Virus record (IMG/VR): IMGVR_UViG_3300028581_002269
Location: 1-49,366 of that record
From: a virus
Direction: 5' to 3' (one strand)
Length of the DNA stretch: 49,366 nucleotides
Of this stretch, positions 666 through 26,338 are shown in pieces; positions within the stretch are counted from its first letter, which is position 1, and every line of letters begins with the position of its first letter. Under the pieces are notes generated by a model, which saw nothing but the letters and a program-made list of their open reading frames with translations, was not told where the DNA came from and ran no database searches. The translations under genes and the position numbers were made by a program.

Positions 666-1460
666 TTAATCTTTTAATAATTGTTTTTTACCACCTTTAT
701 TAGATTTCTCCTCATCTATCTGATCGAAAACCTCTTCGATTATTTCTATAATCTTATTTCTAACAATATCTTCTTTATTTCTTAACTCAACGATACCAAA
801 ACTTTTTTTATCTCTAAATTTATCTATAACAACTTCTAAAGAACTATCTTTTTTATTACGAATATCTTTTTGTTTGATATCACCTAAAATAATCATTTTT
901 GAGTTTTCACCAATCCTGGTCATTAATGTTCTCATATTGTCTAAACTAATATTTTGAGCCTCATCCATAATAATAACAGAATTGTCAATACTTCTACCTC
1001 TAACGTATGCTATCGGTTTTATTTGAACATATCCTTGTTCTCTAAGTTTAGTCGTTAAACTTTCACCTACAATCTTATTAAAATTATCTAAAAATGAATC
1101 CATAAACGGTTCCATTTTTTCTTCCATAGTACCCTTTAGAAATCCTATCTCTTCATCTTTAAGTGTTGTTACAGACTTAACTAAGATTATCTTTTTAAAA
1201 GCGTTTTCTGGGTTTCTTAATAATTTTAATGCTTCAGCACAAGCTAAGAATGTCTTACCAGTACCTGGAAACCCAGAGGCTATTACAATTTCTTTTTCTT
1301 TAATGGCTTGAACTAACTTTTTTTGATTTTCAGTTTTAGGTTTAACATCTACTCTAATTGAATTGATTGTTTTATTTTCCTCTGGTTTTACTGATAAAAA
1401 ATTGTTTACAATTTCTTGTTCATCATCTGACAACCTTTTGTTTGGTCTTCTTTTACTCAT
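666..1460 (-). CDS. phoH: PhoH-family ATPase
   Basis: A 264-residue P-loop ATPase of the PhoH family, common in large phages and bacteria. Walker A is ASGFPGTGKT (residues 61-70), followed by an ACAEAL helix. Walker B is SVIIMDEAQN, followed by a region with MRTLMTRIGENSKMIILGD, as in PhoH/PhoL. The N-terminal 40 residues are a charged extension. PhoH proteins are thought to act in RNA metabolism, as ATPase or helicase partners of nucleases; the role in phages is unsettled. It sits between a 48-residue ORF and the HAD-like gene with gaps of 1-2 nt, so it is co-transcribed with them. Confidence 0.9.
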   Translation of the reverse strand: MSKRRPNKRLSDDEQEIVNNFLSVKPEENKTINSIRVDVKPKTENQKKLVQAIKEKEIVIASGFPGTGKTFLACAEALKLLRNPENAFKKIILVKSVTTLKDEEIGFLKGTMEEKMEPFMDSFLDNFNKIVGESLTTKLREQGYVQIKPIAYVRGRSIDNSVIIMDEAQNISLDNMRTLMTRIGENSKMIILGDIKQKDIRNKKDSSLEVVIDKFRDKKSFGIVELRNKEDIVRNKIIEIIEEVFDQIDEEKSNKGGKKQLLKD

Positions 1461-1462
1461 AG

Positions 1463-1609
1463 TTACTGACTAACGTTTACCGTTAAAATATAATTTTCAT
1501 TTTGATTCTTTATTTTTATAGCCTCTTCCATGTCATCAATTCTCGATACCAATAGCAAAGGTTCAAAGTCACAATCACCAATTCTGACTACTTCCCACAC
1601 TTCATACAT
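1463..1609 (-). CDS. Small hypothetical protein (48 aa)
   Basis: An intact 48-residue ORF that begins MYEVWEVVRIGDCDFEPLLL and ends in a polar tail. It fills exactly the space between the ColD-like gene (whose stop it overlaps by 8 nt) and phoH (2 nt before its start). That packing, and the lack of any other content here, support a real gene. The acidic DDMEEA segment and alternating hydrophobics suggest a small alpha/beta fold. No family is recognised. Confidence 0.6.
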   Translation of the reverse strand: MYEVWEVVRIGDCDFEPLLLVSRIDDMEEAIKIKNQNENYILTVNVSQ

Positions 1610-2759
1610 GATGTTTATTTATAATAGTAGTTATTTTTTGAATATCTTTTTCTGTTAGATCTTGATGGTTAGGTAGATAAAAACCCATTCTATCAATTAT
1701 ATCTGCATTAGGTAAATTAACTTTACCGTATTTTTCGTACCACATTGGTTTATTTGCCATGTTACCAGCAATTAAGGGTCTAACTTCTATACCGTTTTGT
1801 ATTAATTCTTCAGCAATAGACTCCCTATGTTCACTAACAACAGGTATAGCAAAACTAGATATAAAGTCACCCTCATCTACCCTAATATCAATTCTATTAC
1901 CCACAATACCACCGATATATGAAAAGAAATTTTTGTTTCTTTTTTCGGCGTAATCATCTAATCTGTCTATAGCTCTTAAACCAATAAACGCTTGTAAATC
2001 GGTTGACCTTAAATTAAACCCTGGTACATAAAACGTATACAAAGCTTCAAAATCACTACAATTGTGTTTTTCTCTAAGTTCTTTCTGTTTCCAAACTGGT
2101 AAATCCCTGTCCCACCCATGACTTCTCATCATGATTAACATGTGATAGAATTCTTCATCGTTCGTGTTAATAAATCCACCCTCAATTGTACTTAGGTGAT
2201 GACCAAAATACATTGAAAAAAACGAAGCTAAACCAAAACTACCTAAATATTGGTTCTTATATTTTGAACCCATACTTTCACAAACGTCCTCTAATAAGAT
2301 AACATCGTATTTCTCACATAGTGATATAATTTCATCCATTTTAGGTACTAAACCTAACGGTGAAACTAAAATTAAGGATGAGGGGTTATTTTTTTGGAAA
2401 ATCTCTTCAAGGTGAGTTAAATCACAGGACAAATCATCAAGATTACAGTCACACATAATAGGTTCTAACCCTAATAACATTGGACTACTAACATCTGTAG
2501 CCCAACTTAAAGCGGGTACCACTATCTTATTATTTTTAAGTCTGTTTAATTGTTTTAAAGCCGCGAGAGCTAGTAAAATAGCTGAAGATCCTGAATTTAT
2601 ATATACCGAATACTTAGTTCCAATTTTTTTAGCCCATTTATCTTCTAACTCAAAAGTTAGGTTACCCTTTGTTAATTTAGGTGATGGTTCTTGTTGTAAC
2701 CACTCAATTAATGCGTTAATATCCTCTCTATTAATTGTGTCGCTGACTAATTTTATCAT
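1602..2759 (-). CDS. ColD-like PLP-dependent sugar 3-dehydratase
   Basis: A 385-residue DegT/DnrJ/EryC1/StrS-fold PLP enzyme. Visible family features are the NSGSSAILLAL segment, the PALSWATDV strand, the cofactor-binding LLEDVCESMGSKY and the active-site loop FGHHLSTIEGG. The residue that forms the Schiff base in aminotransferases (Lys) is His188 here. That substitution is the hallmark of GDP-4-keto-6-deoxymannose 3-dehydratase (ColD, about 388 aa) and of RfbH-type dehydrases. The following SHGWDRDLP also fits ColD. Predicted reaction: removal of the 3-hydroxyl of GDP-4-keto-6-deoxymannose on the way to GDP-colitose. The next gene, overlapping by 29 nt, is a reductase able to supply the following step. 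Substrate is inferred. Confidence 0.75.
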   Translation of the reverse strand: MIKLVSDTINREDINALIEWLQQEPSPKLTKGNLTFELEDKWAKKIGTKYSVYINSGSSAILLALAALKQLNRLKNNKIVVPALSWATDVSSPMLLGLEPIMCDCNLDDLSCDLTHLEEIFQKNNPSSLILVSPLGLVPKMDEIISLCEKYDVILLEDVCESMGSKYKNQYLGSFGLASFFSMYFGHHLSTIEGGFINTNDEEFYHMLIMMRSHGWDRDLPVWKQKELREKHNCSDFEALYTFYVPGFNLRSTDLQAFIGLRAIDRLDDYAEKRNKNFFSYIGGIVGNRIDIRVDEGDFISSFAIPVVSEHRESIAEELIQNGIEVRPLIAGNMANKPMWYEKYGKVNLPNADIIDRMGFYLPNHQDLTEKDIQKITTIINKHHV

Positions 2760-3663
2760 TTAATAAATAATTTTTGTAAACTTTTTTTATACCACTACTT
2801 AAAGATGTAGGTTTGAAGTCGGGAAGTAAAGATTTTAATTTCTCATTAGAAATGTCTTTTCTGAATTGCCCGTTTGGTTTTGTTTTATCGTAAATAATTT
2901 TAAGATGTTTAGAATCACAAGCTTCTAAAGCTATATTAGCGATTTCTGAAATACTACAATTTTCATTTGTAGTTATATTAAAATTATCGTATATGTTTTT
3001 TTCTAACATTTGATTTATTACGTATGCTAAATCTTCAGAATACATAAACTGTCTTAATGGAGTACCATCACCATATAGAATAATATGGTCATTATTATTT
3101 TTATTTGCCTCATATATCTTCTTTACTAATGAAGTTACAAAGTGACTTTTTTTCTCATCATCCTTATCACCAATACCGTATAGGTTACACGGTGTTATGT
3201 AATTATATTTTGTACCATATTGTTTATTATAGGAATCTATTAACACAGCTAAACATCTTTTAGCGTAACCGTATGAGAAATTAGATTCCGTTGGTGGTCC
3301 AGTGTGTAAATCTTTTTCTTGTAGAGGGTAATGTTCAATAACGTCAGGATAAATACAACTACTTAACATAGTTAAAAATCTTTCTACGTTATAAAGATGT
3401 GAGTATTTAACCATTAAACTATTCATCAATATATTATCGATAAAATACTCAGCTGGTCTTTCAACATTGTCTAATATACCACCAACTTTGGCCGCTAAAT
3501 GTATAACAATATTTGGTTTTATAGTTTCAAACATTTTGATTACATCAGATTCTTTCCTTAAATCATATTCTTTAGAATCTACGTAAATTGCATTAGGTAT
3601 AAATTTTTTGAGTGCTGTACCCACTAGGCCAGAACCACCAGTAATTAGAATGATTTTTTCCAT
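2731..3663 (-). CDS. GDP-fucose/GDP-colitose synthase-like epimerase-reductase
   Basis: A 310-residue short-chain dehydrogenase of the extended NDP-sugar type, closest in motif pattern to GDP-L-fucose synthase (Fcl/WcaG) and its relative ColC. The NAD(P)-binding GGSGLVG lies near residue 9. The SSC triad residues are at 101-103 followed by IYP, and the YxxxK pair is Tyr131/Lys135. Downstream, LYG, SHFV and GDGTPLRQFMYSEDLA match the family. Start ATG at 3663 is chosen over a GTG 6 nt upstream because it forms a TAATG overlap with the GT2 gene. Pairing with the ColD-like gene favours a ColC role (3,5-epimerase and 4-reductase); fucose synthase is the alternative. Confidence 0.75.
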   Translation of the reverse strand: MEKIILITGGSGLVGTALKKFIPNAIYVDSKEYDLRKESDVIKMFETIKPNIVIHLAAKVGGILDNVERPAEYFIDNILMNSLMVKYSHLYNVERFLTMLSSCIYPDVIEHYPLQEKDLHTGPPTESNFSYGYAKRCLAVLIDSYNKQYGTKYNYITPCNLYGIGDKDDEKKSHFVTSLVKKIYEANKNNNDHIILYGDGTPLRQFMYSEDLAYVINQMLEKNIYDNFNITTNENCSISEIANIALEACDSKHLKIIYDKTKPNGQFRKDISNEKLKSLLPDFKPTSLSSGIKKVYKNYLLNDKISQRHN

Positions 3664-4283
3664 TAACACATGTTATAAAAATATAGTAAATTTGGTATCA
3701 CGTCTACTTTATAACCATTCTCATATAATCTAATATAAAAATCCCAATCCTCTTCTCTATTCATATTTGGGTTAAATTTCAAATCTTTAGCTATTTGTGT
3801 TTTAAACATAACAGTAGGGTGTGGTATGTGGTTTATCATTCTTAAATTTAATAAAGTCACATTTTTAATAAAATCATAGCCAGAATAACCTGGTATCGTT
3901 TTATTTTCTGGTAATAAACACATCATTGGTGTTGCCAAAAAATTACAATTTTCGTTTTTTAAAAAATACTCGTATTGTTGTTTAATTTTATCCAAATCCA
4001 TATAATCATCCGAATCTAACCAACAGGACAACCTTGTATCTGATAACTCTAGTATTCTATTTCTTGAATATCCACGCCCTTTATTACCGTCGTTTTCATA
4101 ATAAAAAATATTATTATGATTTTTTAGGTAACCTTCAACAATCTCTTTAGTGTTATCAGTAGAACCATCATTCAATACGACGATTTTAATGTCCTTATAG
4201 GTTTGATTTAATGCTGAGTCAATACACCTACCAATTTTAGATGCGTTGTTGTACGTGGGTATTAATATTGTTATAGTTTCCAT
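3663..4283 (-). CDS. GT2-family glycosyltransferase
   Basis: A 206-residue GT-A glycosyltransferase. The N-terminus ETITILIPTYNNASKIGRC and VVLNDGSTDNT are the classic GT2 nucleotide-sugar-binding start. The metal-binding DxD is LDSDD (Asp90, Asp92-93). The C-terminal REEDWDFYIRLYENG resembles the ED acceptor motif. It is short for the family and has no membrane segment, so it is a soluble transferase. TAATG overlaps on both sides indicate translational coupling within the glycan cluster. Sugar and acceptor cannot be read from sequence. Confidence 0.85.
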   Translation of the reverse strand: METITILIPTYNNASKIGRCIDSALNQTYKDIKIVVLNDGSTDNTKEIVEGYLKNHNNIFYYENDGNKGRGYSRNRILELSDTRLSCWLDSDDYMDLDKIKQQYEYFLKNENCNFLATPMMCLLPENKTIPGYSGYDFIKNVTLLNLRMINHIPHPTVMFKTQIAKDLKFNPNMNREEDWDFYIRLYENGYKVDVIPNLLYFYNMC

Positions 4284-5143
4284 TAATTAGGGTTTCTTGT
4301 TAGTTCTAAGATAGTTGGGTATGTAGATTTATCGTCAATATCTAATTCTGGATATTGATTTAAAGATTCGCCGTGAAAATAAACACCATATTTATGTAAC
4401 CAAGTGGAAATAGGTCCGAATTTATCAACCATTTCTTTATAACCTAACTCACCATATTTGTTATTTGTGAAGTGAACATCATCGACAATTCCGTGTTGTG
4501 ATGGGTTCCTATACGGAAATAAATCATATTTTTTTGACATAATACTTATTAAAGATTCATCATGTCTGTGATCTCTAAACCCAGGATAGTTAGGTTGGCC
4601 TAATTGATTTGGCATATCAGTTAATACTCTAGCATCACAAGAATATGTTAAACATTCTTGAAAAAATTTCTTGGTGAGTTCATTTTTCTTAAATAAAAAC
4701 CAACCACCCACTCTTTGGGCTGTATGCGTGAACTTAGGTGTGTCAGCATCCATAAGTAAAAACATATCTCTTTTAGTCCAAATATAGGCTAAATGATTTT
4801 GTCTAAATGTCATCAAAGATGTACCATCTCTTTCCATAGTATCGATTAAATAATCTATCTTATCTATAAAATGAGAACCCGCATCAGCGTAGAAAATATA
4901 ATCACCTTCCTTTACTGAATCATCGTTCAATAATTTAACCGCAAAATAGTATTTCCATAACCAATATCCAGCTCCCCTTGGTTGATTTAAAATAAATGAG
5001 TTTTTATTTCTGAATTCAGTATCGATATCATCAATTCTAAATTGGTAAGCCTTATCAAATCCACCAACTTCTATACCTGTTTTAGTACATCTTTCTTGTG
5101 TATTTAAAAATCTGTTGTGTGCGTAATTATATAATATTTTCAT
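4283..5143 (-). CDS. Putative glycosyltransferase
   Basis: A 286-residue soluble protein that resembles capsule or LPS glycosyltransferase-like proteins. Residues 56-70 (RGAGYWLWKYYFAVK) precede a strand ending in a metal-binding-like YADAGSHF (85-92). GGWFLFKKN and FRDHRHDESLISIMSKKY fit a GT-A-like fold with a His/Asp-rich distal site. The exact CAZy family is uncertain. It sits between a sugar-nucleotide reductase (17-nt overlap) and a GT2 gene (TAATG). Confidence 0.55.
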   Translation of the reverse strand: MKILYNYAHNRFLNTQERCTKTGIEVGGFDKAYQFRIDDIDTEFRNKNSFILNQPRGAGYWLWKYYFAVKLLNDDSVKEGDYIFYADAGSHFIDKIDYLIDTMERDGTSLMTFRQNHLAYIWTKRDMFLLMDADTPKFTHTAQRVGGWFLFKKNELTKKFFQECLTYSCDARVLTDMPNQLGQPNYPGFRDHRHDESLISIMSKKYDLFPYRNPSQHGIVDDVHFTNNKYGELGYKEMVDKFGPISTWLHKYGVYFHGESLNQYPELDIDDKSTYPTILELTRNPN

Positions 5144-6056
5144 AATATCTAATAGTTTCTTTAATACCTTCTTCAGGTGTTGTAAATGTAAAATCTGGAA
5201 AACATTCTTTAAACAACTTACTGGACATCACTTTTTTAGGTGCTCCTTCCTTTTTTGTTAAATCGTAGTTGATGATAAAATTTGTATGTAAGATGTTTTG
5301 TACCATACTTACAGAGTCTTTAATTGAAAAACCCATTTCTTGACCAATGTTTATTGGGTTGGGTAATTCTATACTGTTGTTATCTATAATATCTTTAATT
5401 AACCTTGCCACGTCCTCCATATAGACCCATTCTCTGATTGGGGTACCAGAACCCCATATCATAAATTCAGTGTCTCTATTCTTAATAGATTTCAACAATC
5501 TAAGAATAATACCGTTCATAGCGTGTGTTCTTTCTTCATCAGTATAATCAAAAGGACCGTAAGCATTTGGTACTAATAAATTAACTGTTTTTATACCATA
5601 CTCTTTCCTATAACATTCTGATAGGATAAAACCAATTTTTTTTGTGTTACCATAAGATTCTACCGATTCATGTACAACACCATTCCACCACTGACTTTCT
5701 TCCAACACCTCTAATGTCTCACCAGGGTAAGAACAGTTAGCTAATGGATTAATTAATAAAATATTTTTATTAACTTCTTTTATTACTTTAAAAATATTGA
5801 TAAACATTAAAGTATTATCACTACAAACTTCAGCTGAAATTTTAGACACATAACCAACACCACCAACGTGAGCTGCAGCGTTTATAATAATATCTGGATT
5901 AATTTTTTTAACAACATCAAGAAACTGTTCGTAATTTAAAATATCACAACCACTTCTTCTTGATTCTAAATGAATTTCATAGTTAGAATCTTTAAAAACC
6001 TTACTTAAGTTTTGACCCAAAAATCCGTAACCCCCTAAGATTAATATTTTTTTCAT
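5127..6056 (-). CDS. NAD-dependent sugar-nucleotide epimerase/reductase
   Basis: A 309-residue extended short-chain dehydrogenase. The Rossmann motif is GGYGFLG (8-14), then INAAAHVGGVG (58-68), NPLANCSYPG with Cys108, and the YxxxK pair Tyr135/Lys139. The second half has VPNAYGPFDY and GSGTPIREWVYMEDVARLI. The plan is that of GDP-L-fucose synthase relatives, making it a second, diverged copy in the cluster. It could use a different 4-keto sugar. Its stop overlaps the next gene and its start forms an ATGA junction with the acyltransferase gene. Confidence 0.75.
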   Translation of the reverse strand: MKKILILGGYGFLGQNLSKVFKDSNYEIHLESRRSGCDILNYEQFLDVVKKINPDIIINAAAHVGGVGYVSKISAEVCSDNTLMFINIFKVIKEVNKNILLINPLANCSYPGETLEVLEESQWWNGVVHESVESYGNTKKIGFILSECYRKEYGIKTVNLLVPNAYGPFDYTDEERTHAMNGIILRLLKSIKNRDTEFMIWGSGTPIREWVYMEDVARLIKDIIDNNSIELPNPINIGQEMGFSIKDSVSMVQNILHTNFIINYDLTKKEGAPKKVMSSKLFKECFPDFTFTTPEEGIKETIRYYENII

Positions 6057-6610
6057 TTATAATAATTTTTGAAAATATTTTTATTCTCTATTTCAGATAA
6101 GTCTCTTTTTTTAATAAGTTTTGCTGGTATTCCAGCATAAAGAGACCATTCTTTAAATTCTTGATTTTTTACTAAAGTATGAGCACCACAGGCAAAACCA
6201 TCTGGTATTAAAACATTTGGTAGTATACATGAATGTGCACCAACCGTTACAAAAGCCCCCAATTCTACAACCCCAACCTCACCACCGAACTGTTCTTCTG
6301 TCGGAACTGAAGGTAAATCTAATGAAACTTTACTATAATCACTAGAGGCACAATGTACTGAACAATGGTTAGATATTGTAGAATAATCCCCCATCTTAAA
6401 TTTACCAGCACCACCAGATATTGATACGTGTGAGGCGATGTGACAATTTTTACCTATTTCAATAGGACATGAAATATAAGCGAAATCGTCAATTATAGTG
6501 TCATCACCTATAACGCATTCTTCGGGTTTTCTTATTCTTACAGTTTTACCTATAATAACATTTTTACCACAATATTTTAACTTACTTTTATCGAAAAATA
6601 TGTTATCCAT
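6053..6610 (-). CDS. Hexapeptide-repeat acyltransferase
   Basis: A 185-residue left-handed beta-helix protein. Imperfect hexapeptide turns run through about residues 14-160, for example VIIGKTVRI, VIGDDTIIDDFAYI, IEIGKNCHIASHVSI and VELGAFVTVGAHSCI. GAHTLV then AGIPAKLIKKR at the end is typical of sugar O- or N-acyltransferases (acetyl-CoA donor). In this cluster it probably acetylates a sugar hydroxyl or an amino sugar made by the aminotransferase at 7322. Overlaps with both neighbours indicate coupling. Confidence 0.8.
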   Translation of the reverse strand: MDNIFFDKSKLKYCGKNVIIGKTVRIRKPEECVIGDDTIIDDFAYISCPIEIGKNCHIASHVSISGGAGKFKMGDYSTISNHCSVHCASSDYSKVSLDLPSVPTEEQFGGEVGVVELGAFVTVGAHSCILPNVLIPDGFACGAHTLVKNQEFKEWSLYAGIPAKLIKKRDLSEIENKNIFKNYYK

Positions 6611-7322
6611 TTTTTTTGTTTTTAGCTAGAATGTTACAATAATATATGTTTCGAATAGTATTATACATACCTTCTTGAGAAAAATCTAAATAAATTAAAC
6701 CATCATCTTGAACTAGATATAAATCGAAATTTTTTAAGAGTTCTAATAATTGGGATAATTCAACCCCACTTGAAGAAAAGGTACCGATACTGTATTCAAA
6801 AATAATATTATCTACAATATTAATTTCATCTTCTAACCCTTTAATAACATTAAACTCATAACCCTCAACATCTATCTTTAATAGGTCAATTTTTTTAATC
6901 CCACTATTCTTAACATAATCTTTAAGTTTAATACATTCAATTTTTTCTTTGATTCCATCTTGAACTCTTGATGGATTAACGGATTCCCATATATAATTAA
7001 AATTAAGTCTTTTATTGATACTTTCAGATTCTTTATAGATTTCTACAGTTTCATCACAGTCAGATAGACATAACTTATTTAGTTTGACATTAGTAAACCC
7101 ACGAAATTTTGAGACCAATCTTTCGAAGTTATATTCTATTGGTTCAAATAAGTGGTATATTGTTTTACTATTTATGTAGGGTAATTCAGAATCTCTAGCA
7201 CCCACATCTATAACAATTGAATCTGGGTTTATGATGTCTTTACAGATTAAAATCTCACCATTTTCATTCTCATTACTGTTAACCCCCATTAAACCACTTA
7301 AATTTCTTTTAGATAATATCAT
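6603..7322 (-). CDS. FkbM-family SAM methyltransferase
   Basis: A 239-residue class I methyltransferase. The SAM-binding motif is VIDVGARDSELPYI, followed by YHLFEPIEYNFERL, and IDLLKIDVEGYEFNVIKGLE is the FkbM family signature. FkbM proteins O-methylate sugars or polyketides. ATG at 7322 is preferred to a TTG at 7328 because it makes a TAATG junction with the aminotransferase gene. Likely target is a sugar of the cluster's glycan. Confidence 0.8.
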   Translation of the reverse strand: MILSKRNLSGLMGVNSNENENGEILICKDIINPDSIVIDVGARDSELPYINSKTIYHLFEPIEYNFERLVSKFRGFTNVKLNKLCLSDCDETVEIYKESESINKRLNFNYIWESVNPSRVQDGIKEKIECIKLKDYVKNSGIKKIDLLKIDVEGYEFNVIKGLEDEINIVDNIIFEYSIGTFSSSGVELSQLLELLKNFDLYLVQDDGLIYLDFSQEGMYNTIRNIYYCNILAKNKKNG

Positions 7323-8416
7323 TACCAACCACTTTTTATTGTTTCTATTATTTTATTCACGTCTTCATCTAATAATTTATCATGAATCGGTATGTGTATT
7401 TGATTATCATCAAAATATCTTTGATTGGTTAAAGAATAATCTTTGCCACCAAAAAGTGTATTCTTATCAATTCCTAAATGAACGACAGATGACGGTATAC
7501 CATTATCTTTTAGTTTGTTAATGAAATCAATTCTACGTTCAATTAACATTGGAAATAACCAGTATGAAGACTCTCTATCGTCTTTATACTCCATAAGTTT
7601 TAATCCTGGGATGTTTTGTAATGATTTCTCGTAAGTTTTCGCAATACTTTTTATTCTACTTAATTTAGTATCAATAGTTTCTAGATTACCTAAACCGATT
7701 GAGGCTGATATATCATTCATGTGGTATTTGAATCCCACATTTGTTATATCATATTCTCTTTCACCTAAAATTGATGGTATAGAATTCTCTCGGTCTATAT
7801 CAAACCATCTTAATCTTTTAACTAATTTAGAATCCGATTCTTTTAGACATGTTAATAAACCACCGTCACCAGTAGTTAAATGTTTAATAGCTTGAAAAGA
7901 GAATGATGTGAAATCTGATAAAGTACCGATTTCTTTATTTCTATATTTCGCACCTAAAGCGTGTGCGGCATCTTCAATTACAATTAAATTATGTTCTTTA
8001 GCTAACTGATTTATTTCTTCCATATCACAAGGGTATCCACCCCAATGAACAGGTATAATTGCTTTAGTTTTTTTAGTTATTTTTTGTTTTATAGATTCTA
8101 AAGATATATTACCATCTAAATTAATATCAGCGAATACTGGTTTAGCACCACACTGTAATATAACATGACCCGTAGCGACAAATGTTTGAGCGGGTAAAAT
8201 AACTTCATCACCTTCTTTAACCCCAGACGCAATTAAAGCTAATCTCATTGTGACGGTTCCACTATTTAATGTTACTGGGTTCGGGAAACCGTATTTCATA
8301 TTTAATTTTTCCTCAAATAAGTCAGCTCTTTTACCCGCTGAAATCATTGTAGATGTTAATACCTGATTAACGTACTCAATAGATTTATCTGAGATTGTCG
8401 TATTAAAAAAATCCAT
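7322..8416 (-). CDS. DegT/DnrJ-type sugar aminotransferase
   Basis: A 364-residue PLP enzyme. LNSGTVTMRLALIASG binds cofactor phosphate, VIEDAAHALGAKY binds the pyridine ring, and SFQAIKHLTTGDGG contains the Schiff-base Lys178. Unlike the His188 paralogue at 1602, this one keeps the lysine, so a true transamination of a 4-keto sugar (perosamine-synthase-like) is expected, with glutamate as usual donor. It is coupled to FkbM by TAATG and abuts the GT10-like gene. Confidence 0.85.
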   Translation of the reverse strand: MDFFNTTISDKSIEYVNQVLTSTMISAGKRADLFEEKLNMKYGFPNPVTLNSGTVTMRLALIASGVKEGDEVILPAQTFVATGHVILQCGAKPVFADINLDGNISLESIKQKITKKTKAIIPVHWGGYPCDMEEINQLAKEHNLIVIEDAAHALGAKYRNKEIGTLSDFTSFSFQAIKHLTTGDGGLLTCLKESDSKLVKRLRWFDIDRENSIPSILGEREYDITNVGFKYHMNDISASIGLGNLETIDTKLSRIKSIAKTYEKSLQNIPGLKLMEYKDDRESSYWLFPMLIERRIDFINKLKDNGIPSSVVHLGIDKNTLFGGKDYSLTNQRYFDDNQIHIPIHDKLLDEDVNKIIETIKSGW

Positions 8417-9207
8417 TATTTTAAGTAGTTTAAATAAATAAAGTCTTCAGCTGTAGGTAACTGTAAGGCTCTTTCAAAATTTTCTTTTACATATTCGAAT
8501 TTTGAGTTATATAAATCGACAGATAAATCAGAAACTTTAAAATCTTCGGTTAATCTAATAATACCGTTTTCATTAAAAAATTCACTAATATCTGGACTAC
8601 CCCAAAAAATAGGTATTGTACCCATGGCAAACGTGTCAGTTATTTTTTCAGTAAAAATAGATGGGTAATTATCATTTTCCATCGCTATTGAAAAATAGTA
8701 ATCTTTAAACCCAGCATCTTTAGTTGGTAAATAACCATGTCCCGATCCGTAAAGGTCTAATTTACCTCTAAGTTTATTAACCCAACCCAATCTATAACTG
8801 TGTCCTGGACACATATTTTTAGAAGAGGCAATCATAGAAACTAATTTAGATTTTGAGTGTATCCCAATATCTTTTACCCAAGGACATGCGTTTGGAATTG
8901 CGTATCTCATTTTAGGGCTTAAATCCAATAATCTTTTATCGTGTGTGAAAATTAACTCATACTCTTCATTTATAGTACCAATACTGGAAATAACTTTTTC
9001 TATTAACTTAACATTAATAGCACTAGATTCTGCAATCCAAGCGTATTTCTTTTTTGATTTATCACCCCAACCGTCTAAAATGGCCCAATCAATATGAATT
9101 GAAACATTAGAACTACCATCTTTAACCCATTTAACATGTTTATTTATGTTATGTGCGGACGAACAATCAACATGTTGAAATCCACCTCCCACCATATTAA
9201 TCACCAT
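8416..9207 (-). CDS. GT10-like alpha-1,3/4-fucosyltransferase
   Basis: A 263-residue protein with the C-terminal signature of GT10 fucosyltransferases. YYFSIAMENDNYPSIFTEKI runs into TDTFAMGTIPIFWG and SPDISEFF, which is the GDP-fucose-binding region. The N-terminal half has a Rossmann-like WAILDGWGD and AWIAESSAIN. GT10 enzymes are GT-B inverting transferases that use GDP-L-fucose, consistent with the fucose/colitose-type enzymes at 2731 and 5127. An ATG 12 nt further in is an alternative start. Confidence 0.75.
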   Translation of the reverse strand: MVINMVGGGFQHVDCSSAHNINKHVKWVKDGSSNVSIHIDWAILDGWGDKSKKKYAWIAESSAINVKLIEKVISSIGTINEEYELIFTHDKRLLDLSPKMRYAIPNACPWVKDIGIHSKSKLVSMIASSKNMCPGHSYRLGWVNKLRGKLDLYGSGHGYLPTKDAGFKDYYFSIAMENDNYPSIFTEKITDTFAMGTIPIFWGSPDISEFFNENGIIRLTEDFKVSDLSVDLYNSKFEYVKENFERALQLPTAEDFIYLNYLK

Positions 9208-9970
9208 GATTATCCCAAGTTAAAATATAGTTATTGGGGTGAGTTAATGGAACTTCAGCGATAAGTTTAGAATTAGGTATGGCGTTTTTTATTTCCTCTC
9301 TATTCATCATATCAACATTAAAATGGTGACCAATTTGATTTCCAGTGATATAACCAGATTTTGATTTATTAATAATTTTTTCTAAATATATTTTTTGAAT
9401 ACCTTTATTACATTCAGTGAATGCATAATTAGAAATTACAATATCATAATTTTTTTCTGGTAAACTATCGTATGTATAATAGTTTAAATTTTTATAACCA
9501 TATTTTTCTAAATATTTTTTAGTCAAACCCAAAACCTCTGGTAGGTCAACAAAATTATATTCATCTATATTAAAATAATCCATAATTAGTTTAGATTGTC
9601 CACCATAACCAACACCGATTTCTACAATTTTTTTATTAGCTAAAGAACCAAAAATACTCTCCAACTCACTTAAAACTTTAACATACCTCAATGTGGATGG
9701 TGATATTAATCCAAACGGATCCAAATACTCAACTTTTGTTGGATTGCCCTGTTCGTCATTTTCTTTAAATTTATTAATTTTAGATAAATCTAATCCAGTT
9801 TTTAATATAAAATCTATATATTTTTGACCGTATTCCTTACTTGTGTGTTCTAAAATTGTTGTATACTCAGAATTTTGTTTAAACTTAGAAAAGGCTTCTT
9901 CATTTTTAGATGCCTCTAAACAGACATTTTTATAGGAAAAATAATCGGATATTGATGTTGATGTTTTCAT
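9197..9970 (-). CDS. Putative sugar O-methyltransferase
   Basis: A 257-residue class I SAM methyltransferase resembling the 'putative sugar O-methyltransferase' group. The SAM motif is KIVEIGVGYGGQSKLI, the acidic strand YNFVDLPEVLGL, and the post-motif II region YDIVISNYAFTECNKGIQ. The first 110 residues are a helical cap that could hold the glycan acceptor. The ATG follows a leader made of repeated A5-6C units. It overlaps the GT10 gene by 11 nt. Confidence 0.65.
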   Translation of the reverse strand: MKTSTSISDYFSYKNVCLEASKNEEAFSKFKQNSEYTTILEHTSKEYGQKYIDFILKTGLDLSKINKFKENDEQGNPTKVEYLDPFGLISPSTLRYVKVLSELESIFGSLANKKIVEIGVGYGGQSKLIMDYFNIDEYNFVDLPEVLGLTKKYLEKYGYKNLNYYTYDSLPEKNYDIVISNYAFTECNKGIQKIYLEKIINKSKSGYITGNQIGHHFNVDMMNREEIKNAIPNSKLIAEVPLTHPNNYILTWDNHGD

Positions 9971-10015
9971 TTTTGTTTTTTGTTTTTTGTTTTTAAATTA
10001 TTACTATTATTATTA
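9971..10015. repeat. Low-complexity T5-6G and ATT microsatellites
   Basis: Four near-repeats of TTTTTG (9971-9994) are followed by an ATT/TTA run (9996-10015) that reaches the stop codon of the upstream methyltransferase. Read on the minus strand this is the A-rich leader of the gene starting at 9970. The homopolymer-like units could vary in length by slippage. Confidence 0.6.
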
Positions 10016-10792
10016 TTTTTTTATAATAAACGTTATTTCAGAATAAGTACCTTTTTCAATATATAATTCAGCAATATTGTTTTCTAAATACTCCGCCTCT
10101 TCGGTTGTCATAAAATCTGACTCAATTTTACCATGTCCTGTTTTATTTCTAGTTCTTAAGAAATTTTCAAACATCCAAAGTGTGTTTTTTTCCGTATATG
10201 GCCAAGAATTAAACTGATACTTACCACTACGGTCAATTTGCATACTCCTACTAGTATGTAAGTCTTCTACAACAAATAAACCTTTAGATTTTAAATGTTT
10301 AAACATGTATTTTAAGAATATTTGTTGACTTGACATTGTATGTGGGCCATCGTCAATAATAATATCATATTCCGATCCGAATTTCTCTATCACCTTTTCT
10401 AACCCAATCCTACCACCAACCATTTCTGGACGAACATATAATTCTTTCAACCAGGGATGTGTGATTTGGTTGAAATCATTTTCTGTAATAATTTCACCGT
10501 TACAAGCAAATATTTCAATGTTTGGGAATTGTTTAGTTTTATTAATCATACTATAATCACTAATATCTAAACCATATATTTTAGTATCGGGAAAATATTC
10601 CGACCAAGTTCTCAAAGAGGCCGCGGCAGTTTCAATTGTTGGTATAGTGCTTGTACTATAAACACCTAACTCTAATATTTTTTTAGGATCTTTAACAAAC
10701 TTATCAAAATACATTTGATAAAGTGGTGCGTAATTATGGTCTAAACTACTTTTATCTGTATTATTTTTTATCGCTAATTCGTTGATTGTCAT
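10013..10792 (-). CDS. MycE-like SAM O-methyltransferase
   Basis: A 259-residue methyltransferase like the sugar O-methyltransferases of macrolide clusters (MycE type) and related phage or capsule proteins. The N-terminal NNTDKSSLDHNYAPLYQMYF is a family hallmark. The SAM site is KILELGVYSTST, then SLRTWSEYFPDTKIYGLDIS. The catalytic region is YDIIIDDGPHTMSSQQ with the DD/H residues that bind metal in MycE, followed by LFVVEDLHTSRS. It is the third methyltransferase in the cluster. Confidence 0.7.
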   Translation of the reverse strand: MTINELAIKNNTDKSSLDHNYAPLYQMYFDKFVKDPKKILELGVYSTSTIPTIETAAASLRTWSEYFPDTKIYGLDISDYSMINKTKQFPNIEIFACNGEIITENDFNQITHPWLKELYVRPEMVGGRIGLEKVIEKFGSEYDIIIDDGPHTMSSQQIFLKYMFKHLKSKGLFVVEDLHTSRSMQIDRSGKYQFNSWPYTEKNTLWMFENFLRTRNKTGHGKIESDFMTTEEAEYLENNIAELYIEKGTYSEITFIIKK

Positions 10793-10793
10793 A

Positions 10794-11591
10794 TTAAATT
10801 ATTATTGAATTTTTAGGGTACGTATCTTCCAATCTATGACCTCTTAATGCCGGACCAAACCAGACTGATGGACATATTATTTTTTTGTCAGGATTTTTAT
10901 TTAAAATTGAAGCCCACAATGAAAATGAACTATTGGCTGTAATTATATTTTGACACATAGACATTAAGTTATGTTCAATTATCACATCACCACCTAGGGT
11001 CTTATCACCACCATCGATGAATACAAATTTATCACCGATAAAATTAGCTTTACACCAATCCATATCGTTAGAAAATACAATAAACAAAGTATCATCATCA
11101 AAATGACTCATAGCTTTATTATAATAATCCATACCTAACATTGGGTGGTACGCTGGAAAATTAGCGTAATCACCTCTACGAACATGTATTGCACAATTTT
11201 TTTTGGATAAAATTGGGTCGAAAGTGGTTTTAATAAAATCACTATATTCATCTTTCAGTTCTAAATAAGAAAAAACTAAATCTTTACAGTGTTCAAAATA
11301 TTTTTCCGACTGTAAATAACCACCAATATCCCAGTTTTTTGTTTTATCTGGTATAATAACTTCTTCAAAGTGATGGGGTCCTTCTCTGTCTATATAACCG
11401 CCTTTAATCAAATCCAATTCTGGTTTAGGTAATTGTGGTAACTCTTTTTTAAAATATTTGGAATACTTCCAAGTTGGAAATAAATAATCCATACCGTTTT
11501 TATTTGCTATACCTATTGTTGAGGCAATTTGATATAGTTGGTTACCGTACCAACCATATGTTCCGATGTTAGAAAAACTTAATGTTGACAT
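10794..11591 (-). CDS. GT11-like alpha-1,2-fucosyltransferase
   Basis: A 265-residue protein with the GT11 layout. The N-terminal TYGWYGNQLYQIASTIGIA corresponds to the family's G-x-GNQ-(L/M)-(F/Y)-Q motif. CAIHVRRGDYANF is the HxRRxDY GDP-fucose-binding motif, and IVFSNDMDWCKANF and MSMCQNIITANSSFSLW are the later family motifs. Its donor would be GDP-L-fucose or a close analogue such as GDP-colitose. It ends 1 nt before the neighbouring methyltransferase start. Confidence 0.85.
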   Translation of the reverse strand: MSTLSFSNIGTYGWYGNQLYQIASTIGIANKNGMDYLFPTWKYSKYFKKELPQLPKPELDLIKGGYIDREGPHHFEEVIIPDKTKNWDIGGYLQSEKYFEHCKDLVFSYLELKDEYSDFIKTTFDPILSKKNCAIHVRRGDYANFPAYHPMLGMDYYNKAMSHFDDDTLFIVFSNDMDWCKANFIGDKFVFIDGGDKTLGGDVIIEHNLMSMCQNIITANSSFSLWASILNKNPDKKIICPSVWFGPALRGHRLEDTYPKNSIII

Positions 11592-11594
11592 AAT

Positions 11595-12341
11595 TTATAA
11601 TTTATTAGTTATTTTAAGACAATATCTTTCGACAATCATCGGGAAATCCCTTTCGAAAAAATATATATCATTTTTTAATGTACCCATGACGTTGAAATTC
11701 CAATATATGTGACTACCTAAAACCACATGACTATAGTATGGGTATTCAATATCCGTTATTCTTTTATCCCAAAAAATAGGTTTAACTTTTTTAATAAAAT
11801 CATTAATAATACTACCTTTAATAGCGTAAAAAGTGTAGCTCACCATAAAATCTGTGTTTTTACACTCACTTTCACCTAAAAAAGTATCTAAAGAACTTTG
11901 AATAGATCCTTTAGTTGAACAAATACCAAACCAAGGAGAGAACAGACCCATTTCTGAATCGTTTTCAAAAAGTCTTTCAATTTCTTTATTTTTACCTAAA
12001 AAATTATCAAAAACATATGCTCTAAAGGTGTGTGCATCAGATGTTACACCTTTAGTATGTGCAAATACATATAAATCATATTCGTTACTTGACTCTTTCA
12101 ATAAACTTAAAGCGGATTGATATGATGAAACATCAGAATTAACTACAAGTTCTTCTGGTGTGATTTTATATTTAATGTTTCTTTGATTTAAAACTGTAAT
12201 CCATTCTTCACACGAAGGATTAACCCCAACATACACATCATAGTCAACATAGTTTTTTTCGAAGAAATTTAGAAATTCTTCACCAATGTAAACCTTATCT
12301 TTACTGGGGATATATGAAGCAAATATAACTGCCTTTTTCAT
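11595..12341 (-). CDS. RgpF-like glycan biosynthesis protein (tentative)
   Basis: A 248-residue soluble protein. YDLYVFAHTKGVTSDAHTFRAY and the following FLGKNKEIERLFENDSEMGL recall rhamnan-synthesis RgpF-like proteins, which bear a conserved H-T-K and a downstream invariant Gly-Leu strand. No DxD is obvious. It lies between GT11 and GT25 genes with gaps of 1-3 nt, which supports a role in the same glycan pathway. The function is not certain. Confidence 0.4.
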   Translation of the reverse strand: MKKAVIFASYIPSKDKVYIGEEFLNFFEKNYVDYDVYVGVNPSCEEWITVLNQRNIKYKITPEELVVNSDVSSYQSALSLLKESSNEYDLYVFAHTKGVTSDAHTFRAYVFDNFLGKNKEIERLFENDSEMGLFSPWFGICSTKGSIQSSLDTFLGESECKNTDFMVSYTFYAIKGSIINDFIKKVKPIFWDKRITDIEYPYYSHVVLGSHIYWNFNVMGTLKNDIYFFERDFPMIVERYCLKITNKL

Positions 12342-12342
12342 T

Positions 12343-12996
12343 TTATTTTTTCAGAAAATCATAATTCATCACAGCTCCCTGAATATCTGAAAAATCGGTT
12401 CTTTGCCAGGCTAAATGTGGATTTTTAAATCCATAAACATTTAATGTTTTATGTAGTTGGGCCATAAAATAATCTGCAGCTACAGAAGGTGTATATTTAG
12501 TTGTTTGGTTATTAAACACCATATCTATTTTGTCAGACATGAATTTAATTACAATATCATAAACATCTTCCTTAACACCATAAGCGTGAATAGCGTAACT
12601 ACCAAATAATCTTTGTACATTTTCAGATACAGGTGCGGCACCACCTACGTGGTTACCACCAAAGAATATCATTTCCCAATCTTTGGGTAGTTGTTTACTG
12701 AAGTTTTCAAATAGTATGTTAGTATCTGGGTGAAATTCAACATCATCTTCTAATATTAGAATATTTTTATACCCTTTTTCTTTAGCGTATTTTAAAACGT
12801 TAGTATGACTCATAGCTCCAGCTATCTCAGCATTATAAACACTACCCTGTGGTAATGTTAACTGTTTCCCGTCAACAGCAGAAAATCTTTCTACTTCTAG
12901 TCCTAATTTGGTGAATATCTTTTGACACTCTTCCCATCTATCGGCCCTTCTGTCAAGATTTATACAGTATATTTTATCAAAAAAATTATTTAACAT
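12343..12996 (-). CDS. GT25-family glycosyltransferase
   Basis: A 217-residue GT25 (lipooligosaccharide glycosyltransferase-like) protein. FDKIYCINLDRRADRW (6-21), VERFSAVDGKQL, GAMSHTNVLKYAKEKGYKN and ILEDDVEF (81-88) are the successive family motifs; the EDD is the metal/donor site. This family often transfers galactose or glucose. The protein overlaps the next upstream gene by 11 nt. Confidence 0.85.
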   Translation of the reverse strand: MLNNFFDKIYCINLDRRADRWEECQKIFTKLGLEVERFSAVDGKQLTLPQGSVYNAEIAGAMSHTNVLKYAKEKGYKNILILEDDVEFHPDTNILFENFSKQLPKDWEMIFFGGNHVGGAAPVSENVQRLFGSYAIHAYGVKEDVYDIVIKFMSDKIDMVFNNQTTKYTPSVAADYFMAQLHKTLNVYGFKNPHLAWQRTDFSDIQGAVMNYDFLKK

Positions 12997-13768
12997 TTTC
13001 GAATAGATTTTTTACTTTTTTAACTTTATGTAATGTACTTGGTAGCCCGCCCCATAAAACTTTATTAGGATATATCCAATTATCATAATGATTAACAATT
13101 CTATCGATATCATTATTAAAATTAACGGAAGCTGAACTGTTTTGTAACTTAACTCTTACATTATTTCTAATATAAGAACCGTGATGCATTTGAATTTGTT
13201 CCCTCTTTAGAACTATAGGTCTATCTGAAGGTACTAACCTTCTTGTAGGATCTACTAAAACTGGAGCTGGTGCTCCAATTACGTAACTTGACTCTGATTT
13301 GATTTTAAAGATTAAGGAAACATAATACTCTTCAGCTGGGTCTAATGAATACTCCCAACTTTTATAGTATGTTTGCATTTGGCAATAAGATGAATCATAA
13401 TCACCCTCTATTATATTTTTTTTGAGATTTTCGAATTCTGATGGTAGATAATATTCGTCAGAATCCATGGACATATGATGTGTACATCCGGCACCTTGAG
13501 ACAGGGATAACCCTATATTTCTTTTTTGAATTTCATTAGAGTGCCCACCTTTATTAACTTTAGGTGAGTATTCAAATAATTCATCTACTAAACCTTCTGA
13601 TTTTAATTTTTCCAACAACGGAACTAATCTCGAATCACAGGGGTTACCGAAGTTTGAAACTGTCTGATAAACTACACTCACGTAGTCCACATGTTCCCTT
13701 ATTTGTCTTATTGACCCTTCTAATAGTTCTTCTCCGTCAAATAAGTTATACGAAATTCCTAAACGCAT
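12986..13768 (-). CDS. Putative GT-A glycosyltransferase
   Basis: A 260-residue protein. LGISYNLFDGEELLEGSIRQ, VDYVSVVYQ and the strand THHMSMDSDEYYLP (DSD at 102-104) point to a GT-A-type transferase with a metal-binding DxD. The basic C-terminus and MHHGSYIRNNVRVK may form the acceptor side. Family number is unclear. It overlaps its two neighbours by 11 and 23 nt. Confidence 0.55.
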   Translation of the reverse strand: MRLGISYNLFDGEELLEGSIRQIREHVDYVSVVYQTVSNFGNPCDSRLVPLLEKLKSEGLVDELFEYSPKVNKGGHSNEIQKRNIGLSLSQGAGCTHHMSMDSDEYYLPSEFENLKKNIIEGDYDSSYCQMQTYYKSWEYSLDPAEEYYVSLIFKIKSESSYVIGAPAPVLVDPTRRLVPSDRPIVLKREQIQMHHGSYIRNNVRVKLQNSSASVNFNNDIDRIVNHYDNWIYPNKVLWGGLPSTLHKVKKVKNLFENVK

Positions 13769-15347
13769 TATCTATATCTCCCTGTTTTAAAAGTTTACTT
13801 CTTTCCATTAAAGCTTCGAAATCTCTTGCTTTAATGTTTGTGAAGTAATTATATGTTCTTTTATTGTTCAATATAAATGGGATTAACTTTTTTGTGTAGT
13901 CTTCCGATTCACGTTTAAGCTTTTCTTCACTCTTATTTCTTGTCTGACTTTCATAGTGATAACAAACAGCATCACCAACAAAAATATTTTCTCTATGACG
14001 ATTTATACATTGAACATTTAATTCAACATCTTCAAAACATTCTCTATAATTCGTATTAAAACCACCAATTTCATCGAACAGTTTTTTATTAATCATCAAG
14101 AATGCACCAGTATTACCAAAAACATTTCTGATTAAACAATCATGGTATGTATGATAAGATCTTAAACCATGGTGTGTAACACCAATACCCGCATCTTGTC
14201 TAACAAACATAACAATACCAGAATGTTGTACCGTGTTATCCCCATAATGAAGACGTGCACCTATAGTACCAACATTTTTCTTGTTCTTATTATAAACATC
14301 AATCATACGTTCGATTGCGTTATTAACAAGTTTAATGTCATTATTACAAAATAGTAAAACTTCAGTATCTTTTTCGATGTGGTTTTCAACTACATCATTA
14401 TTGATAACAGCGAAATTATAGAAATCGTATTCAATAAATCTTGCATCACCATGTCTATCTGAAAGGAATTTTTGACTTGAGCAGAACTGTTCGATTTCTT
14501 TTTTCTCTTCTGGGGTAGAACCTGTATCAGCTACATAAATTGTTATTCTAGTGCCAGGATAACCACCTTGTTTATAGATTGAATTGATGCAATCCTTTAA
14601 CATTTGAACATTACCTTTAGTCGGAATTATAATCCCAAGTTTAGGCCCTTCTTTAAGGTTTTTTGATTTAGTCTCAAACCTTAGTTCTGGTTTAATATTG
14701 TGTGGTAATTTTTCTTTATATTTTTCAATAAATTGTTCACGATTTTTTTCCCACTCGTCATTAGTTGCCCCCATTGATTTATGGGTGATTTTAATATCAA
14801 ACATAACACCAACCTTAACTCCACTCAAATGGTTGTTAAAAGTGAAATCTACATCGTAGAAATGGAATCCTTTGAAGGACTCGTCAAACCTATTTTTAAT
14901 TCTATCTTTATGGGCAACAAAAAATAGACCATCTAACATGACGGTCTCAATAATTTCATCACTAAAGTTGTTGGAGTACTTATTCTCCCAGGTCTTACCT
15001 TCATTAGTATGTGAAACAATTCCAACCATTTTAGTTGAATCCTGCCACCAACGACCAATTTCGGACATATCAGTGGTACCAGCCATACCAATAACACCAT
15101 AATCGGTGTTATTGAAATGTTTGATAACTTTCTTACCCCACCCTTCTTTTAGAATAATATCGTCATGACAAAATACTACAATTTTGTTTTTTGTATTATC
15201 TAAACCGTAGTTGTAACACTCAGTTAAAGACTTATCTCCGTTATTGATGATTTCAACAATCTCATAATCTTTTACACCAATAGTTTTCTTGATGTGTTCT
15301 TGAAATTGTTTATTAATACTGCGGGTAGAGTAAACTATACTAATCAT
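13746..15347 (-). CDS. Two-domain GT2-type glycosyltransferase
   Basis: A 533-residue protein with two transferase-like halves. Residues 1-210 resemble the StrF/GT2-like domain: SLTECYNYGLD, then VVFCHDDIILKEGWG (58-72) and VIGMAGTTDM. From about 235, GIIIPTKGNVQMLKDCINSI starts a standard GT2 domain with ADTGSTPEE, LLFCNNDIKLVN and NVFGNTGAFLMINKKLFDEI, plus an ED-type FEDVELNVQC. The second half resembles rhamnosyltransferases. A single polypeptide could add two sugars. Its start codon overlaps the stop of the small gene upstream (ATGA). Confidence 0.8.
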   Translation of the reverse strand: MISIVYSTRSINKQFQEHIKKTIGVKDYEIVEIINNGDKSLTECYNYGLDNTKNKIVVFCHDDIILKEGWGKKVIKHFNNTDYGVIGMAGTTDMSEIGRWWQDSTKMVGIVSHTNEGKTWENKYSNNFSDEIIETVMLDGLFFVAHKDRIKNRFDESFKGFHFYDVDFTFNNHLSGVKVGVMFDIKITHKSMGATNDEWEKNREQFIEKYKEKLPHNIKPELRFETKSKNLKEGPKLGIIIPTKGNVQMLKDCINSIYKQGGYPGTRITIYVADTGSTPEEKKEIEQFCSSQKFLSDRHGDARFIEYDFYNFAVINNDVVENHIEKDTEVLLFCNNDIKLVNNAIERMIDVYNKNKKNVGTIGARLHYGDNTVQHSGIVMFVRQDAGIGVTHHGLRSYHTYHDCLIRNVFGNTGAFLMINKKLFDEIGGFNTNYRECFEDVELNVQCINRHRENIFVGDAVCYHYESQTRNKSEEKLKRESEDYTKKLIPFILNNKRTYNYFTNIKARDFEALMERSKLLKQGDIDNAFRNFV

Positions 15348-16022: not shown

Positions 16023-16328
16023 TTATTCTTTATTTGGGTTATAGAAGGTATATTGGACAGTTAACTCCTCACCTTCTTTAATTTCTTTAATGTTTTCTAA
16101 GAAAATAAAATCATCTTCATATACAACCCTACAATTTGGTGTTTCTGAGTGATTAAAGAACCCATCTAAAGGTGTTCTTGAATAACCATCTTGAAATCTA
16201 TTGTCTCTTATGTGTGTAACACCGATTCTAAAATCACTATCAATGTTATCGATAGCAAAAAGACCTAACCCTTCAATATGTGAAGGTTTAATTGTCAAAT
16301 ACTTCGGCATTGGTCTATATCCACCCAT
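16023..16328 (-). CDS. Small SET-domain protein
   Basis: A 101-residue SET-domain protein. HIEGLGLFAIDNI is the GxG-type SAM-binding start, GFFNHSETPNC is the NHxxxPNC signature, and IKEGEELTVQYTFY is the GEEL-x-Y motif with the catalytic tyrosine. It lacks pre- and post-SET zinc regions, so it is near the minimal size for a lysine methyltransferase. An internal ATG (MPKYL) could be the true start. Target unknown; bacterial SET proteins can modify ribosomal or nucleoid proteins. Confidence 0.8.
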   Translation of the reverse strand: MGGYRPMPKYLTIKPSHIEGLGLFAIDNIDSDFRIGVTHIRDNRFQDGYSRTPLDGFFNHSETPNCRVVYEDDFIFLENIKEIKEGEELTVQYTFYNPNKE

Positions 16329-17666: not shown

Positions 17667-17668
17667 TT

Positions 17669-18985: not shown

Positions 18986-19015
18986 ATATTTTTTAAGACG
19001 ATTTGTTGTAAATAA

Positions 19016-19045
19016 AAAAACCGTCACATAAAAATGACGGTTTTT
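19016..19045. terminator. Bidirectional hairpin terminator
   Basis: AAAAACCGTCA (19016-19026) pairs with TGACGGTTTTT (19035-19045) around an 8-nt loop, with T-tracts on both strands. It ends the minus-strand transcript carrying 19,149-21,749. Confidence 0.85.
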
Positions 19046-26139: not shown

Positions 26140-26155
26140 TATTTTATTTTTATTT

Positions 26156-26338
26156 TTATTCCCAAGTTATTCCAAACCCGTTATCTGTGATTATTGGTGA
26201 ACCGTTTTCATCAACAACTATCAAAAATGTACGGTGGTAATGGTCCACTTTTACATTGACCGCAAAATTCTGAGTTAGGTTGTACGATATGAGAACCACC
26301 AAAAGTATCGGGTCTACAATATCTTCTACAATCAACAA
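26156..26338 (-). CDS. Possible small ORF or frameshifted C-terminus of the LamG-like protein
   Basis: A 60-residue reading frame overlapping the 3' end of the gene at 26,211 by 128 nt. Its own part, after that gene's stop, reads IVVDENGSPIITDNGFGITW, which looks like a genuine protein end rather than noise. A +1 shift near TTT at about 26,222-26,227 would join it to the LamG-like protein. Separate translation is the alternative. Evidence is weak. Confidence 0.3.
   Translation of the reverse strand: MLIVEDIVDPILLVVLISYNLTQNFAVNVKVDHYHRTFLIVVDENGSPIITDNGFGITWE

Follow-up and report, generated by a model that had tools for sequence, protein, structure and literature searches.

Why should a phage carry a dense bank of genes for making a glycan when it carries none for exporting it, and to what would that glycan be attached? 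These questions are raised by the minus strand of positions 1602-15347 in the virus record IMGVR_UViG_3300028581_002269, a linear IMG/VR fragment of 49,366 bp (the window, by which we mean the whole stretch of DNA analysed), so that the absence of a gene holds for this fragment only. The record has a GC content of 32% and encodes T4-like tail sheath, tube and baseplate-type proteins. Comparison with related phages identified the locus as one among several versions of a swappable hypervariable island, which is more telling than the glycan cluster alone.

The genes of the cluster and their coordinates were confirmed. The stretch is 99.7% coding and holds 16 open reading frames (ORFs) of 185-533 aa, all of them intact, as against a longest ORF of 161 aa over 50 shuffles of the same sequence; neighbouring genes overlap at 11 of the 15 junctions and are separated by 1-42 bp at the other four. 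The initial annotation had described fourteen overlapping genes with start-stop overlaps throughout; it was right about the density and, at most junctions, about the overlaps, and its gene count was too low. Families were assigned by Pfam, NCBIfam and PHROGs profile searches (Table 1). Matches to hidden Markov models (HMMs) and PDB entries bore out its two fucose/colitose-type reductases, ColD-like dehydratase and sugar aminotransferase, and Pfam HMMs its GT2, GT10, GT11 and GT25 glycosyltransferases and hexapeptide acyltransferase. For two other claims the agreement was partial: among the three methyltransferases the FkbM and NanM types were recovered by HMM, while MT259 is weak by Pfam and leans on a PHROG match; and among the several glycosyltransferases, GTx286 and X248 bear that name provisionally, because neither matches a Pfam family. 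The GT4 gene said to lie nearby was found at 17669-19027 (no Pfam match; PHROG 7162 'glycosyltransferase', 5e-41).

A swappable island between fixed neighbours

Relatives for the island comparison were found via GT2dbl, the two-domain glycosyltransferase at one edge of the locus. One flank is common to them and runs from PolB to GT4, an exonuclease-like gene, dUTPase, Ntn163, GT2dbl and X260; the other common flank consists of PhoH and DUF219, and the genes between the two flanks change. In the closest relative (G033), the main flanking blocks share 79-91% nucleotide identity with the window, and no nucleotide alignment was obtained across positions 1360-12733 (11.4 kb), except for 402 bp of GT10 at 66%. 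The first breakpoint falls within the first ~40 codons of PhoH, where the identity shared with G033 falls from 91-100% to 41-59% (first 44 aa), and the second lies in the 5' half of GT25, the nucleotide match stopping at 12734. Flank proteins are mostly 75-98% identical to those of G033 (X116, 67%; fibre genes excepted), as compared with 23-45% for island proteins, where these have a counterpart at all. The corresponding slot of G033 (L181:8871-16529) encodes RfbH (468 bits; cut-off 423), a dTDP-glucose-4,6-dehydratase-like SDR, an acetolactate-synthase-like thiamine pyrophosphate (TPP) enzyme and a DmpF/DmpG pair (acetaldehyde dehydrogenase and 4-hydroxy-2-oxovalerate aldolase). RfbH is a CDP-dideoxyhexose enzyme, and TPP enzymes of the acetolactate-synthase-like kind occur in branched dideoxysugar routes, e.g. 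that of yersiniose.

Three further island types were seen in G028, G029 and G032, and very short islands in three other loci (L171, L172 and L179). Some versions recur in independent records (G027/G028, 99.997% identity over 60 kb; G030/G031, 99.98% over 28 kb) and are thus unlikely to be assembly artefacts; the versions of the window and of G033 each rest on one record. GT25, GT11 and GT10 are found again in the majority of islands. Overall, the group combines a conserved core with variable decoration genes: GT4, GT2dbl and X260 are 71-92% identical in near relatives, the other island genes being replaced. With dN/dS values of 0.06-0.09 against G033 (0.06 for both X260 and GT2dbl), these constant transferases are under strong purifying selection and are conserved to the same degree as replication genes.

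A second hypervariable spot was noted at 25264-26139 and 28088-30697, where two genes, probably for fibres or adhesins, have no counterpart or a partial one in close relatives, although the genes around them are 88-97% identical in G033.

The predicted sugar pathway and its history among phages

E. coli ColD is the best PDB match of the first island gene product, with the His-for-Lys site aligned, and His187-His188 is invariant across 12 phage homologues. The adjoining reductase, GFS1, of the GDP-fucose synthase (GFS) family, keeps the catalytic S-x-C, Tyr-Lys and His residues in the alignment. GFS1 adjoins ColD on its upstream side in 26 loci that were fetched (22 with identical copies merged). 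Of 26 records searched for GDP-mannose 4,6-dehydratase (GMD), 24 encode it: in 23 it follows ColD immediately or almost so, and in one it lies close by. As for the remaining two, one record ends inside the start of GMD and one lacks the gene. GMD and ColD with a reductase of the GFS type constitute the GDP-L-colitose pathway. Read as part of that block, GFS1 is therefore best taken as ColC (GDP-colitose synthase), and colitose is probably a product of the window's locus.

GMD itself was not found in the 49.4-kb record, nor could a relic of it be seen between ColD and PhoH in the sequence read directly. The initial annotation was thus correct that GMD is missing from the window, and it had placed the source of the enzyme in the host or elsewhere in the genome; with GMD encoded by 24 of 26 relatives, the step is not simply a host function in this phage group. 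The phage represented by G030/G031 also has ColD without GMD at the usual place, and no GMD was found elsewhere in its joined ~95 kb. Supply of GDP-4-keto-6-deoxymannose by the host is plausible, the more so because near islands that have no GDP-sugar genes (G028) nevertheless contain GT10 and GT11. As regards the other sugar enzymes, the second reductase, GFS2, keeps its Tyr and Lys, and its catalytic Ser is replaced by Ala (LANCSYP, where all others aligned have S-x-C), so that its activity is doubtful; its 48% relative in G031 retains the Ser. The DegT aminotransferase, with its Lys kept, and the hexapeptide acyltransferase together suggest a route to an N-acylated amino sugar.

The history of ColD was compared with that of the flanks. 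Pairwise identities of flank genes co-vary (PhoH/DUF219, rho 0.73; GT4/dUTPase, rho 0.75), while ColD identity is unrelated to that of DUF219 (rho 0.01) and weakly related to that of PhoH (rho 0.30), all these correlations being descriptive, as they use non-independent pairs. In phages whose PhoH is only 32-38% identical to that of the window, ColD identity is nevertheless 66-73%, and 29 phage ColDs group together in a single clade (support 100/99). ColD therefore appears to have circulated for long among phages rather than to have been taken recently from hosts. The nearest entry outside this clade is a 4.6 kb contig labelled Blastocatellia (L074; ColD 59%), which may be misbinned phage DNA.

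In one locus (L013:5191-7584; also L020:5188-7581), GT2, GT11 and GT10 are fused in a single chain of 798 aa, and the three therefore act on one glycan. It is very improbable that the region is just a plastic one in which acquired sugar genes have collected by chance without a joint product: the great differences in island content among relatives would suit such a history, but it sits badly with 16 intact and tightly packed frames, a retained GFS1-ColD-GMD block, the GT2-GT11-GT10 fusion and the purifying selection on the constant transferases.

Export functions and the acceptor of the glycan

Export functions were sought in 12 records (the window and 11 relatives, four of which span 154-210 kb). 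None contained a Wzx flippase (PF13440; the control matched 14/14) or an initiating phosphoglycosyltransferase (PF02397; control 10/14; the WecA-type family PF00953 was not searched). In the four large relatives, where no HMM search for Wzy or ABC exporters was made, hydropathy revealed no membrane protein resembling a flippase or a polymerase; the long proteins that it flagged there resemble tape-measure or virion proteins. By the same measure, the window has no multi-pass protein of the kind of a GtrABC/Oac-type membrane transferase, a flippase or an acyltransferase. Within the cluster hydropathy flagged a single stretch, which belongs to the hexapeptide acyltransferase and was judged a false positive; this agrees with the earlier observation that the cluster lacks visible membrane segments. 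Outside the cluster, a single membrane-like stretch was noted among the tail-region proteins at 43782-44420 and 48516-49364, and a tape-measure-like gene is cut by the end of the record. The first description, of a phage gene set that makes a glycan with fucose/colitose-type enzymes but lacks genes for its export, is thus supported, and the lack of PF13440 and PF02397 extends to the relatives.

Because no flippase, polymerase or lipid-carrier transferase is encoded, the acceptor that calls for the fewest assumptions is a virion protein. We give about even credence to a serotype-like locus, swappable as a unit, whose soluble enzymes make a branched glycan, here probably with colitose, and attach it most likely to a protein of the virion. 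Fixed flanking glycosyltransferases (GT4, GT2dbl, X260 and GT25) would stand beside a replaceable bank of genes for sugar synthesis and for glycosyl, methyl and acyl transfer. The constant GT4, GT2dbl and X260 would assemble the inner portion, by which the glycan is attached. GDP-4-keto-6-deoxymannose, supplied by a GMD of the host or one encoded elsewhere in the phage genome, would be converted to GDP-L-colitose by ColD and the ColC-like reductase, and a keto-sugar would be turned into an N-acylated amino sugar by the aminotransferase and the acyltransferase. The replaced genes would make and add the outer sugars, probably colitose and the N-acylated amino sugar, together with methyl groups; the order of sugars is a conjecture. 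A short, branched, methylated glycan would so be assembled by soluble transferases in the cytoplasm, and swapping the gene bank would change the coat of the phage particle. More tentatively, and at somewhat less than even probability, the lineage may have serotypes, in that a recombination-prone locus swaps entire pathways for dideoxyhexoses and other rare sugars and thereby changes the virion's own glycan coat, as a phage counterpart of O-antigen switching in bacteria.

Several points weigh against this proposal: (i) GMD is missing from its usual place in the window, (ii) GFS1 scores 209 against an NCBIfam equivalog cut-off of 500, and ColC and fucose synthase are inseparable by sequence here, (iii) islands that lack ColD can also contain GT10 and GT11, so that neither need be a colitose transferase, (iv) the identity correlations use non-independent pairs, (v) the fibre genes vary too, which is equally consistent with explanations that involve the host surface, and (vi) the virion glycan is a prediction from genes, its acceptor protein being hypothetical.

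The fifth point bears on a quite different role: the island may serve to alter the surface glycan of the host itself, thereby blocking competing phages or keeping progeny from sticking to debris. Colitose and RfbH-type sugars are sugars of O-antigens. Variation in the island is accompanied by variation in the tail-fibre genes, and a role on a host lipid-linked precursor or at the host surface is the usual reading in cyanophages and pelagimyophages (PMC7029224, PMC9602691). We regard such editing as possible but on balance unlikely, since the membrane proteins of known O-antigen-converting phages are lacking, since neither the island nor any of the four large relatives encodes a membrane transferase, and since ColD belongs to a long-standing phage clade rather than being a recent host acquisition.

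Glycosylation of modified bases in the phage DNA, which would guard against restriction as in T4-like phages, is improbable. The GT4 gene and the constant transferases do adjoin PolB and dUTPase, and DNA glycosylation is known for T4 relatives such as RB69 (PMC6024577). However, no PF00303 match (thymidylate synthase or dCMP hydroxymethylase) was found in the large relatives G009, G014, G022 and G034, matches elsewhere score 200-318 bits and are read as ordinary thymidylate synthase, and up to eight transferases with swapped dideoxyhexose pathways exceed the needs of base glucosylation. A Tet_JBP search returned no match, but no control matched either, and it was not used as evidence. We would thus rank the candidate acceptors as virion protein, then host glycan precursor, and DNA last.

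Gene inventory, probable host and known systems

Table 1. Genes of the glycan island and its flanks in the window.
Feature	Position	Strand	Evidence and remarks
DUF219, right-hand conserved anchor	5..664	-	95% identical in G033, 70-72% in other near relatives; no Pfam match
PhoH-like ATPase, right-hand anchor	666..1460	-	Pfam PhoH 7e-61
Gap at the place of GMD in relatives	1461..1601	-	141 bp; only a small ORF of ~48 aa
ColD-type pyridoxal phosphate-dependent GDP-4-keto-6-deoxymannose 3-dehydratase (predicted)	1602..2759	-	E. coli ColD 7e-59 (PDB)
GFS1, GDP-fucose synthase family SDR, read as ColC	2731..3669	-	GDPFucSynFcl 9e-62; PDB GDP-fucose synthase 5e-54
GT2 glycosyltransferase	3663..4283	-	Pfam Glycos_transf_2 8e-31
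GTx286, possible glycosyltransferase	4283..5143	-	no Pfam/NCBIfam match; relatives only within other glycan islands
GFS2, second GFS-family SDR	5127..6056	-	GDPFucSynFcl 9e-40
Left-handed beta-helix (hexapeptide) sugar acyltransferase	6053..6610	-	Pfam Hexapep 3e-13; 79% relative in G031
FkbM-type methyltransferase	6603..7328	-	Pfam Methyltransf_21 8e-15
DegT-family sugar aminotransferase	7322..8416	-	Lys kept (FQAIKHLTTGDGG); Pfam DegT 1e-92; best PDB matches are sugar aminotransferases
GT10 fucosyltransferase-family glycosyltransferase	8416..9207	-	Pfam Glyco_transf_10 1e-7
NanM-type putative sugar O-methyltransferase	9197..9970	-	TIGR04371 71.6 bits, cut-off 44
MT259, probable methyltransferase	10013..10792	-	Pfam weak, E 0.002; PHROG 21658 'methyltransferase' 8e-16
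GT11 (alpha-1,2-fucosyltransferase family)	10794..11591	-	Pfam Glyco_transf_11 3e-21; HxRRxD motif
X248, possible glycosyltransferase	11595..12341	-	no Pfam match; 40-41% relatives in the G029 and G032 islands
GT25-family glycosyltransferase	12343..12996	-	Pfam Glyco_transf_25 5e-14
X260, putative GT-A-fold glycosyltransferase, left-hand anchor	12986..13768	-	no Pfam match; structure model; 81-90% in near relatives
GT2dbl, two-domain glycosyltransferase, left-hand anchor	13746..15347	-	Glyco_tranf_2_5 2e-32 and Glycos_transf_2 4e-17; 71-92% in near relatives
Flank dUTPase, exonuclease-like gene, GT4	16328..19027	-	dUTPase 5e-22; 88/82/97% in G033

X260 models as a GT-A glycosyltransferase (pLDDT 77), with ThuS as the best structural match (Z 13.4), followed by the WrtF fucosyltransferase. 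A protein acceptor was considered from its Foldseek matches (SunS, ThuS and ColGalT1) and set aside, as polysaccharide and teichoic-acid transferases score equally. PDB sequence searches with X260 and GT4 profiles gave no relative, and the model of GT2dbl (pLDDT 65) was too weak for use. Next to the island, a protein of the HslV-peptidase-like PHROG 1040 is encoded at 15530-16021 (77-83% conserved), and 16023-16328 encodes a SET-domain protein of 101 aa (36.7 bits; cut-off 22.4) for which the near relatives examined gave no counterpart; a ClpP-family protease (198 bits) lies among the tail genes at 40059-40763.

The phage belongs to an aquatic T4-like lineage. The best annotated relatives of its tail sheath are from Microcystis and Flavobacterium phages (31-36%), and megablast of the cluster against annotated phages gave no match. 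A Shine-Dalgarno-like motif was present in 0/30 start regions, against a background of 5%, and the leaders are 51% A; start regions without Shine-Dalgarno motifs and with A-rich leaders are a pattern known for Bacteroidota. The only annotated phage relatives of X260 are in Prevotella Lak phages, and the nearest relatives of PolB include Salinibacter phages. The host is probably a member of the Bacteroidota.

Hypervariable glycosyltransferase islands and cyanophage GDP-fucose genes are already known, while the swapping of whole pathways and colitose appear new. Marine T4-like pelagimyophages and cyanomyophages have a hypervariable, glycosyltransferase-rich host recognition cluster (PMC7029224), which resembles the present island in being large and placed between conserved modules. 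That cluster, bounded by VrlC and gp14, includes tail fibres and is not described as swapping whole sugar pathways; in contrast, the island reported here lies between dUTPase/GT2dbl and PhoH, separate from the candidate fibre genes (25264-30697), and holds complete or near-complete dideoxyhexose routes. Cyanophage S-SCSM1 encodes GDP-fucose and GDP-galactose steps, and no ColD is named in the accessible part of its description (PMC9602691). S-SCSM1 has phage-encoded GMD, a GFS-type reductase and fucosyltransferase-family genes in common with this group, as does Synechococcus phage ACG-2014f. In the latter, gp223-gp226 (L073:10044-13957) encode in a row GMD, a GFS-type reductase, a ColD-like protein with FGHH kept, and GT11. 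They are annotated merely as epimerases, aminotransferase and glycosyltransferase (the ColD, only 31-32% identical, as an aminotransferase or hypothetical protein), and they are likely an unrecognised colitose cassette. No paper on phage-encoded colitose was found in the literature searched, where subscription journals are largely missing.

With the GDP-L-colitose loci of enteric O-antigens (ColA/GMD, ColB, ColD, ColC) the island shares the active-site His of ColD and the adjoining GFS-type reductase; it differs from them in lying in a phage genome, with no Wzx found and no GMD at its place. In the capsid glycans of chloroviruses, likewise, the core is conserved and the decoration is virus-specific and in part methylated (PMC9614988), and in both cases the virus encodes soluble enzymes, with conserved core genes and virus-specific decoration genes. 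Chloroviruses are eukaryotic algal viruses, however, and their N-linked glycan is chemically proven, whereas the present one is known from gene content. Mycobacteriophages encode glycosylation of capsid and tail tube subunits (Freeman et al. 2023, as cited in PMC12619734); the phages and gene sets described there are different.

If the proposal is true, some phages exchange a gene cassette between fixed neighbours to change their sugar coat, as bacteria change their O-antigens. The window and G033, which have almost the same particle genes and a different predicted glycan, make the question concrete. Colitose and RfbH-type sugars would then join the probable products of phages, with soluble enzymes for the synthesis of rare sugars, and a testable function could be given to the glycosyltransferase islands, hitherto unexplained, of aquatic T4-like phages.

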